A stretch of 64,000 nt of DNA from positions 372,001 to 436,000 of the forward strand of contig NZ_JBAJIJ010000002.1 in the NCBI RefSeq assembly GCF_036867135.1. Reading direction: 5' to 3'. Positions 29,794-37,560 of this stretch are shown here, piece after piece; position 1 is the stretch's first letter; each line of letters begins with the position of its first letter. Made by a program: the position numbers and the translations under genes. The DNA comes from Aeromicrobium sp. Sec7.5 (GTDB taxonomy: Bacteria > Actinomycetota > Actinomycetes > Propionibacteriales > Nocardioidaceae). The notes beneath the pieces are model-generated. The model was not told where the DNA came from, did no database searches, and was given only the letters and a program-made list of their open reading frames with translations.

Positions 29794-29804
29794 GCCCCAC
29801 CCCC

Positions 29805-30105
29805 GGTGGTTGAGGTGCGAGGAGCGCCAGCGACGAGCCTCGAAACCTCGGTCAGGTCGAAGGCTGAGTTACCCCTTTCGAGGCTCGTTCCTCGCACCTC
29901 AAGGGGCGGGGCTCCGCCCACGCTCCCGGTGGTTGAGGTGCGAGGAGCGCCAGCGACGAGCCTCGAAACCTCGGTCAGGTCGAAGGCTGAGGTACCCCTT
30001 TCGAGGCTCGTTCCTCGCACCTCAAGGGGCGGGGCTCCGCCCACGCTCCCGGTGGTTGAGGTGTGAGTGCCGCCTGCGGCGCGAGCCTCGAAACCTCGGT
30101 CAGGC
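29805..30105. repeat. Tandem palindromic repeat, two full units of 123 bp and a part
   Basis: Units begin GGTGGTTGAGG at 29805, 29928 and 30051, so the period is 123 bp; the first two units differ at one base. Within a unit, GAGGTGCGAGGA near the start and TCCTCGCACCTC near the end, and ACGAGCCTCGAAA and TTTCGAGGCTCGT between them, are inverted copies, so the unit can fold into a long hairpin. No protein gene occupies 29794-30126; the short ORFs here are produced by the repeat. Confidence 0.9.
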
Positions 30106-34793: not shown

Positions 34794-34870
34794 GGCCCCG
34801 TGGCGCAGTTGGTTAGCGCGCCGCCCTGTCACGGCGGAGGTCGCGGGTTCGAGTCCCGTCGGGGTCGCCA
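34794..34870 (+). tRNA. tRNA-Asp (GTC)
   Basis: A 77-nt tRNA. The acceptor arms GGCCCCG and CGGGGTC pair, with one G-U. The anticodon arm is CCGCC-CT-GTC-AC-GGCGG with the anticodon at 34828-34830. The T loop is TTCGAGT and the 3' CCA is encoded. G34 makes it a target for queuosine and for GluQ (28915). Its last 22 bases and the first bases after it occur again at 35035-35060. Confidence 0.97.
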
Positions 34871-34871
34871 G

Positions 34872-34917
34872 AAAAGCAGCGAGGTCCACGCCGTGAGGCA
34901 TGGACCTCGCTGCTTTT
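34872..34917 (+). terminator. Hairpin terminator after tRNA-Asp
   Basis: Perfect 17-bp arms (34872-34888 and 34901-34917), with a 12-nt interior that can pair further (GCC/GGC). The left arm starts AAAAGCAGC and the right arm ends GCTGCTTTT, so it works as an intrinsic terminator. Confidence 0.85.
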
Positions 34918-34950
34918 GTGGCGTCCGACGGACGAGTACCCGCGAAGCGG

Positions 34951-35100
34951 TGGGGGTACCTCCCAGCCCCGAGCGCCAACCCCGGGCTCCGGTCGGATCC
35001 CCTCGGGTTGCACCCGAGCGAGGGGCGAGGGGGATCGAGTCCCGTCGGGGTCGCCAGAAAGCAGCAGGGTCCATGCCGTCAGGCATGGACCCTGCTGCTT
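34951..35100 (+). repeat. Echo of the tRNA-Asp 3' end with a second hairpin
   Basis: TGGGGGTACCTCCCAGCC (34951-34968) begins a spacer element that leads to an exact 26-bp copy (35035-35060) of the tRNA-Asp end and its first downstream bases (34849-34874). A second hairpin follows (arms 35059-35077 and 35082-35100, 19 bp, GTCA loop). The hairpin resembles the first one but has compensatory changes in the stem. The same arrangement follows tRNA-Phe. No gene is present between 34918 and 35127. Confidence 0.8.
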
Positions 35101-35127
35101 GTCAGGGGTCTCTGACAGGCTTCTCGC

Positions 35128-37179: not shown

Positions 37180-37253
37180 GGCCAGGTAGCTCAGTTGGTA
37201 CGAGCGACCGCCTGAAAAGCGGTAGGTCGCCGGTTCGACCCCGGCCCTGGCCA
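37180..37253 (+). tRNA. tRNA-Phe (GAA)
   Basis: A 74-nt tRNA. The acceptor GGCCAGG pairs with CCTGGCC; the discriminator is A. The anticodon arm is ACCGC-CT-GAA-AA-GCGGT, anticodon 37214-37216. The CCA is not encoded, unlike tRNA-Asp in this window. A TAGAGT -10 box (37147-37152) lies upstream. The last 19 bases and the next one recur at 37380-37399. Confidence 0.97.
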
Positions 37254-37302
37254 CTTCATGAGAAAAGCCCCCGCGCTCTTTGCGGGGGCTTTTCTCATGA
37301 AG
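37254..37302 (+). terminator. Hairpin terminator after tRNA-Phe
   Basis: A perfect 21-bp stem (37254-37274, 37282-37302) with loop GCTCTTT, starting one base after the discriminator base. The stem has a GC core and an A/T-rich base (GAAAA / TTTTC). It is probably a terminator and possibly a 3'-processing signal. Confidence 0.85.
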
Positions 37303-37307
37303 CGACC

Positions 37308-37497
37308 AGGGTTGGCACGAGAAACGGCGAGTCGCCTGGGGGTCCCTCCCAGCCGCGAGGAACGAGCGGCGAGGGGGAGTCGACCCCGGCCCTGGCCACA
37401 GACGAAAGCGACCCCGCATTCTTTGCGGGGTCGCTTTCGTCTGTGATGAGGGTTGGCACGAGAACCGGCGGGTCGCCTGGGGGTCCCTCCCAGCCGC
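37308..37497 (+). repeat. Echo of the tRNA-Phe 3' end, second hairpin, and 49-bp direct repeat
   Basis: A 49-bp direct repeat (37308-37356 and 37449-37497, two mismatches) contains TGGGGGTCCCTCCCAGCC, the same core as at tRNA-Asp. Between the copies lies a 20-bp exact copy (37380-37399) of the tRNA-Phe end (37235-37254) and a second perfect 21-bp hairpin (37397-37417, 37425-37445, loop ATTCTTT). Apart from these elements and the repeat at 37508, no gene is visible in 37254-37634. Confidence 0.85.
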
Positions 37498-37507
37498 AGC
37501 GTCCACC

Positions 37508-37560
37508 CGCTGGTTGAGGTGCGAGTGCGCTCTGGCGCGCGAGCCTCGAAACCACCCCGC
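37508..37560 (+). repeat. Partial copy of the GGTTGAGG palindromic repeat
   Basis: It contains TGGTTGAGGTGCGAG, a short variable loop, and CGAGCCTCGAAACC, the left half of the 122-bp unit seen at 29805. Confidence 0.7.

Follow-up and report, generated by a model that had tools for sequence, protein, structure and literature searches.

A repeat unit bounded by tRNA-tail copies behind tRNA-Asp of Aeromicrobium and its likeness to the rtT units of Escherichia coli

Downstream of an intact tRNA-Asp gene in the window, the whole 64,000-nucleotide stretch analysed here from the 3.42-Mb genome of Aeromicrobium sp. Sec7.5 (G000), lies a unit in the order tail, terminator, inverted tail, core, tail, hairpin. 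On the best explanation of the evidence, the feature probably belongs to the rtT kind of tRNA-tail repeat units. The unit works like the E. coli rtT/tyrT repeat, yet it falls outside the Rfam RtT model and is no integrated island of the classical type. Among close relatives, units bordered by tail copies vary in presence or order, and the tRNA is whole wherever it was compared.

Anatomy of the tRNA-Asp unit

The tRNA-Asp gene (GTC) occupies positions 34794-34870 of the + strand. A sequence-only reading of the window had proposed that its end recurs downstream, and this holds exactly over 26 bp: the segment 34849-34874, consisting of the tail from the T-loop to CCA plus GAAA, is identical to an echo at 35035-35060 (+), which begins in the T-loop. 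Extended to 34845-34874 and 35031-35060, the two copies share 29 of 30 bases. The last 45 bases of each of the 46 tRNAs that ARAGORN finds in G000 stretches around tRNA genes were compared with their own downstream 1.5 kb. The longest exact match spans 7-10 nt in 33 of the 46 and 22 nt at tRNA-Asp; non-cognate tails reach 13 nt or more in 33 of 1980 comparisons, likely owing to clustered tRNA genes. This comparison rules out simple chance as the source of the tRNA-Asp echo.

Each tail copy is followed by a strong hairpin, as had been noted, and both fold far better than shuffled sequence: hairpin 1 (34872-34917, +) at -38.9 kcal/mol (z -8.8) and hairpin 2 (35057-35103, +) at -42.6 kcal/mol (z -9.3). 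Their proposed kinship stands, with a GCAGC start and a GGTCCA motif in both. The paired changes in the stems are likewise real (16 shared pairs unchanged, two changed on both sides and none on one side); the selection that had been read from them is unproven, because template switching can likewise keep palindromes matched. In its long GC-rich stem followed by a short T run, hairpin 1 resembles an intrinsic terminator and passes the terminator scan, and a terminator-like site on the reverse strand overlaps it. It differs from such a terminator in that, together with the tRNA tail, it forms part of a larger palindrome. Behind hairpin 2 stands GTCAGG in place of a proper T run; this hairpin fails the scan, so that the suggested tandem terminator fits the first hairpin and not the second.

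Between the hairpins, the spacer core of the sequence-only reading, TGGGGGTACCTCCCAGCC (34951-34968), is present, yet it is merely the start of a longer palindromic core, TGGGGGTACCTCCC ... GAGGGGGA, which occupies 34951-35034 (+) and ends exactly at the echo; related shorter cores are known in the genus. Overlooked in that reading were this abutment of core and echo and an inverted copy of the tRNA tail. The inverted copy, TGGCGTCCGACGGACGAGTACCCGCGA (34919-34945, - strand), lies between hairpin 1 and the TGGGGGTACC core, corresponds to the T-arm and the 3' acceptor strand, and carries altered T-loop bases. Its match to the tRNA-Asp tail reaches p 0.001 against mononucleotide shuffles and p 0.005 and 0.002 against block shuffles, and the cognate tRNA scores best of 43 tRNA genes. 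As single-stranded DNA, positions 34840-35110 are predicted to form a giant hairpin (z -12.5) with hairpin 1 at its tip, in which the T-arm and acceptor strand of tRNA-Asp pair with the inverted copy.

The 164 bp from 34871 to 35034 contain no gene. A Pfam search of five neighbouring proteins returns no integrase or recombinase; four belong to non-mobile families (cysteine dioxygenase, DUF2786/DUF7168, nitroreductase and fatty acid hydroxylase), and the fifth has no match. In a single contig scan, the DUF2786 gene has relatives at 90% identity in an Actinomycetes MAG and at 82% in Aeromicrobium sp. Leaf350. Apart from two tRNAs, nothing in the window reaches an Rfam gathering score.

Variation among relatives and the tRNA-Phe locus

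The second of these tRNAs, tRNA-Phe (GAA; 37180-37254, +), stands 2.4 kb beyond tRNA-Asp and is followed by a like plan with an additional truncated core. Its hairpin 1 (37255-37301, +) precedes a possible decayed inverted tail (37302-37330, -), which is not significant in G000 (p 0.18 with mononucleotide and 0.49 with block shuffles). A core (37337-37379, +), a 20-bp tail echo (37380-37399, +) and hairpin 2 (37400-37442, +) follow, and the truncated second core, TGGGGGTCCCTCCCAGCCGC, lies at 37477-37496 (+). Among five Aeromicrobium loci compared with Rfam, two sub-threshold matches of mir-9457 to the tRNA-Phe hairpin are taken as chance. Separately, the intergenic region 29800-30100 of the window holds repeated copies of a GGTGGTTGAGGTGCGAG...CTCGAAACC element, and a related piece lies near 37511-37555, beyond the tRNA-Phe unit (both by eye).

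The tRNA-Asp and tRNA-Phe loci of the genus were taken from genomes giving good matches, and an echo was counted where the last 17 tail bases recurred with at most three mismatches, or 13 bases recurred exactly, within 300 nt; one Phe locus with less than 140 nt downstream was dropped. By this measure an echo follows tRNA-Asp at 3 of 48 loci (G000, G032 and G040) and tRNA-Phe at 16 of 47. The sequence-only reading had asked for such a comparison, and the structure is present in some relatives and missing from others rather than uniform. Relatives lacking the Asp echo still have terminator hairpins behind tRNA-Asp, as judged by eye, and the tRNA itself contains no core.

At tRNA-Phe, the gained or lost piece can be delimited. 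With a 145-bp unit omitted, the G000 locus aligns through to that of the sister species G032 at 80% over the whole alignment and much more closely over the first ~180 bases. The distal G000 hairpin is best matched by the only hairpin of G032, and the proximal one by G042 and G006; therefore the tRNA-proximal Phe unit is the extra one, gained in G000 or lost in G032. The echo and second hairpin at this locus are the displaced old tail and terminator. Of the earlier idea of an element that rebuilds the tRNA end on insertion, one part thus stands: the tRNA is whole, and an added unit separates it from its former tail and terminator. Insertion of the integrase type is unsupported, as the unit holds no gene and an inverted tail copy would not arise from ordinary integration. 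At tRNA-Asp, hairpin 2 of G000 is 93% identical to the first hairpin of G032, its best match among the genus units compared, and other pairs reach 74-83%; hairpin 1 of G000 has no clear counterpart there, and with only one of the two hairpins matched a full swap is unsupported. Order varies as well. Over 600 bases beside tRNA-Asp, G028 and G043 agree at 99.2% of positions; they carry two tRNA-Phe units in opposite order, every terminator keeping its own spacer. Both assemblies are fragmented, and an assembly error is an unlikely cause.

Across the eight loci with matchable hairpin pairs, 9 stem changes are two-sided, 3 are one-sided and 132 pairs are unchanged. The first and second tRNA-Phe hairpins of G011, G016 and G021 are nearly or fully identical (98-100%). 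This similarity, together with the high stability of all four hairpins at the Asp and Phe loci of the window, would suit a simple tandem duplication of tail and terminator, kept since two terminators curb read-through better than one. Such a purely terminating role is nevertheless improbable: the second tRNA-Asp hairpin has no T run, plain duplication brings neither an inverted tail nor a core, and there is no echo at 45 of the 48 Asp and 31 of the 47 Phe loci.

The inverted tail recurs beyond G000 and scores higher at tRNA-Asp of G032 than in G000 itself. It was scored at 20 Asp and Phe loci of the genus, namely the echo loci and a few chosen without an echo, with core-less loci unscored and G037 left out. 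At 11 of the 20 it reaches p<=0.01 against mononucleotide shuffles; the other nine, tRNA-Phe of G000 among them, lie above that threshold. At all three echo-bearing Asp loci the cognate tRNA ranks first of 43-44, in G040 tied with the tRNA-Asp of the window. When blocks are shuffled across a wider span, p<=0.01 is reached at 2 of 3 Asp loci with an echo and at 0 of 45 without (Fisher p 0.003); for Phe the figures are 5 of 16 and 3 of 31 (Fisher p 0.075), a weak association of echo and inverted tail. Among nine loci of other tRNAs, four are significant: Val in two genomes and His at p 0.001, and Ser marginally at p 0.01. Two Ala loci, Pro, Leu and a third Val are not (p 0.19-0.53). Wherever the inverted tail is significant, the arms fit the local tRNA. 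By eye, 12 of the 15 inverted tails at p<=0.01 have an altered T-loop dinucleotide (TC or TT expected), which is GA in 8 of the 12; TC is kept in Phe of G002, Phe of G021 and Ser. A wider spread of the Asp-type pattern was sought in 198 genomes of the phylum and rejected: 30 matches in 28 genomes compare with 44 for the reversed control, and none of the 12 loci fetched has a tRNA beside it.

Cores, other tRNA genes and the E. coli units

Thirteen of the 46 G000 tRNAs have an exact cognate tail match of at least 13 nt downstream. In six (Asp, Phe, Ser-TGA, Pro-TGG, Ala-GGC and Ala-CGC) the echo starts in the T-loop, and in four (Thr-CGT, Thr-TGT, Arg-TCT and Arg-CCT) it starts just 3' of the anticodon; of the other three matches, two lie on the flanks of an IS481-like element beside tRNA-Pro genes and one is simply the following tRNA-Glu. 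At tRNA-Val, a strong inverted tail and a core are accompanied by an echo of only 10 nt. In the four anticodon-start repeats the likeness extends left across the anticodon arm, with A37 changed to C in all four (by eye). These repeats are similar to integrase att cores, lack a core like that of the tail units, and may be a separate phenomenon. The longest series follows tRNA-Thr(CGT) (L010:1501-2340; G000 C1:595335 ff.), where six tandem 126-bp units each close with the last 39 tRNA bases; those of Thr-TGT, Arg-TCT and Arg-CCT are shorter. The IS481-like element lies directly behind tRNA-Pro CGG (L009) and GGG (L022), with TGT...ACA ends (by eye) and 15-bp copies of the tRNA end on its flanks, and the L022 copy matches LZ_Tnp_IS481, rve and rve_3.

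The core pattern GGGGGNNCCYCC...YGGGGGA has 132 matches in the 49 genus genomes, 37 of which have at least one, compared with 13 for the reversed pattern. A core joined to the start of a tRNA tail is found in at least 7 of 391 genomes of the order, all seven among the 31 genus genomes and none among the 360 outside; this count is a lower bound, as the long cores of the window escape the patterns. Some core copies lie away from tRNAs, beside or inside other inverted repeats. One 32-bp palindrome, GGGGCACCTCCCTGCACGAAGTGCTTGGGGGA, which looks like a tiny mobile palindrome, is present in one of the two IS481-like copies of G000 and missing at the same point of the other (L009 and L022, by eye). 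These three observations, the pattern excess, the copies in other inverted repeats and the palindrome in one IS481-like copy, favour a core that is itself an independent mobile palindrome entering hairpins, those of tRNA tails included, with the echo as a side effect of insertion. This is compatible with the repeat-unit explanation, and we consider it unlikely. Among 21 core loci, direct flank repeats of at least 20 nt occur at three, two of them beside a tRNA and one with a tRNA-like tail, and those of the others are at most 15 nt; the E. coli core, moreover, differs. One further array, L133 (G028 C107), consists of two units with a 116-bp period and a tRNA-like end tail, TCCCGGCAGCTCCAC; no tRNA lies within the stretch fetched.

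The Aeromicrobium units and those of E. coli tyrTV and proK have the same anatomy. RtT is annotated as a small RNA released from a tRNA transcript, and to our knowledge the E. coli tyrT repeats have so far been treated as a peculiarity of one locus. Like the window unit, the RtT (RF00391) units of tyrT-tyrV lie downstream of a tRNA, are closed by a copy of the cognate tail (19 nt of tRNA-Tyr in K-12), occur in tandem and contain an inverted tail with an altered T-loop, which pairs with the tRNA tail in the computed RNA fold. Four of six segments contain this inverted tail at p 0.001, and each of the four has GA in place of TC in the T-loop. The core sequence, in contrast, differs from that of Aeromicrobium, and the tyr units lack the strong hairpin that stands right behind the tRNA at proK and the window loci (by eye). 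The Rfam RtT model scores 133-138 bits on four E. coli tyr units and finds no match in the window at its gathering score, nor any at E<=0.05 in the Aeromicrobium loci L033, L015, L006, L019 and L110. A core motif common to the Ala, Ser, Pro and Leu units of G000 and to E. coli, which looked good by eye, was rejected: 15 alignments give uncorrected p values from 0.017 to 0.75, and in G000 the motif is barely commoner than its control (26 compared with 19). Common descent of the Aeromicrobium and E. coli units is unsupported, because their cores align unconvincingly.

A search with the tyr unit finds matches in 4695 of 5426 E. coli genomes. Of two matches inspected, one lies behind tRNA-Tyr and the other behind tRNA-Pro, in the same arrangement as K-12 proK, where a 19-nt tRNA-Pro echo, a terminator present twice and a core like that of tyrV are found. 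The cognate inverted tail at proK reaches p 0.005, a just moderately better fit, because non-cognate tails reach 0.027 and 0.047. The proK locus of ESY001 lacks exactly one 168-bp unit, and removing this unit from the occupied allele reproduces the empty one (0 mismatches in 300). Loss is the most likely origin of the empty allele, because its remaining copy has a truncated core. In 2661 of the 5426 genomes, coverage of the query with the proK unit is 80% or more; with such coverage standing in for presence, the site is polymorphic in E. coli. A divergent allele carries a different terminator before nearly the same inverted tail. RefSeq records L188 and L192 annotate proK units, far from tyrT, as 'RtT sRNA, processed from tyrT transcript', which is misleading there because the unit bears tRNA-Pro tails.

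Origin of the units

On the repeat-unit explanation, one unit runs from the T-loop through the tRNA 3' end, the terminator hairpin, the inverted altered tail and the palindromic core up to the next tail. Recombination or replication slippage between the direct repeats could gain, lose and reorder such units. At birth, a nascent strand may fold back at the terminator palindrome and copy the tail in reverse, then turn at the palindromic core and copy tail and terminator forward. This hairpin-templated copying is proposed because fold-back copying would leave a tail-inverse-tail series with palindromes at both turns, and the same mechanism might maintain the fit between the arms and the local tRNA. 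A tandem inversion duplication has the order direct-inverse-direct with palindromes at both turns. The tRNA-Asp locus shares its direct, inverse and direct copies, the inverse copy being non-significant at tRNA-Phe of G000, and differs in that the unit is much smaller, the core is not in the original, and at many loci the inverse copy shows changes at the same T-loop positions. The T-loop change recurs across several tRNAs and two phyla, an outcome not predicted by plain copying, and the core is foreign to the tRNA, with similar palindromes elsewhere in the genomes, which counts against pure copying. Both leave room for a mobile core or a recombinase.

Integrated islands and AICEs of the Islander type are among the nearest known systems. 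According to PMC4383910, the subsites at which integrases enter tRNAs are the anticodon loop, the T loop and the T/acceptor junction, and by that account the Asp and Phe fragments of the window, which start in the T-loop, begin at an island subsite. A whole tRNA and a displaced 3' fragment starting in the T-loop are common to both systems. The window unit, however, spans less than 200 bp, has no integrase gene inside it and contains, besides the inverted tail, a terminator that resembles the displaced one. These features could be reconciled by a miniature site-specific element that encodes no enzyme of its own: a circle of terminator, inverted tail and core would integrate at the tRNA T-loop by a tyrosine recombinase of host or phage, restoring the tRNA tail as genomic islands and integron cassettes do. 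The exact echoes of G000 begin in the T-loop or just 3' of the anticodon, and both loops are among the subsites named in that paper. The swap between G028 and G043 would follow if a unit were excised at its core and re-entered at the tRNA tail. The tRNA-Phe of G046 (L116, C2:588180 ff.) holds a real island, an AICE-like element of ~18 kb that encodes a tyrosine integrase and a pSAM2-type RepSA and reaches to a distal fragment of tRNA-Phe that begins at the anticodon loop. We nonetheless regard the miniature element as a minority possibility, given that neither the unit nor the set of five neighbouring proteins searched includes a recombinase, that the significant arms match the local tRNA and the inverted copy is left unexplained, and that the anticodon-arm repeats have no such core and are maybe a different thing.

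In the repeat-unit explanation, hairpin 1 would end transcription of the tRNA, and in RNA that reads through it the inverted tail could pair with the tRNA tail. Computed folds of read-through RNA at five loci pair the tRNA tail with the spacer over 14-19 pairs in the presence of the echo, and in the printed folds the 5' acceptor strand pairs with the echo and the cloverleaf is lost; these are equilibrium folds of long RNAs and are silent on folding order in the cell. A shielding of the tRNA from the inverted tail by the echo was considered and rejected: tail and spacer pair at the five loci with the echo (14-19 pairs) and without it (11-19 pairs).

More speculatively, tRNA-tail cassettes of terminator, antisense altered tail and palindromic core, present in at least two phyla, might move as circles between tail copies. 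The tRNA 3' end would then be a landing site for exchangeable terminators, and antisense tail and echo would give read-through RNA a second tRNA-like fold. The papers reached by literature searches contain no description of such a class, and none of those listed deals with the rtT/tyrT repeats; searches for partial tRNA repeats and, judged by title and abstract start, for core sequences as text returned nothing relevant.

In conclusion, the same anatomy stands behind the Asp, Val and His tRNAs of an actinobacterial genus, less clearly behind Phe in G000, and behind E. coli proK, where presence of the unit varies within the species. The origin of the unit thereby becomes testable, as do the use of tRNA tails as recombination sites for tiny non-coding cassettes and the role of the altered antisense tail.
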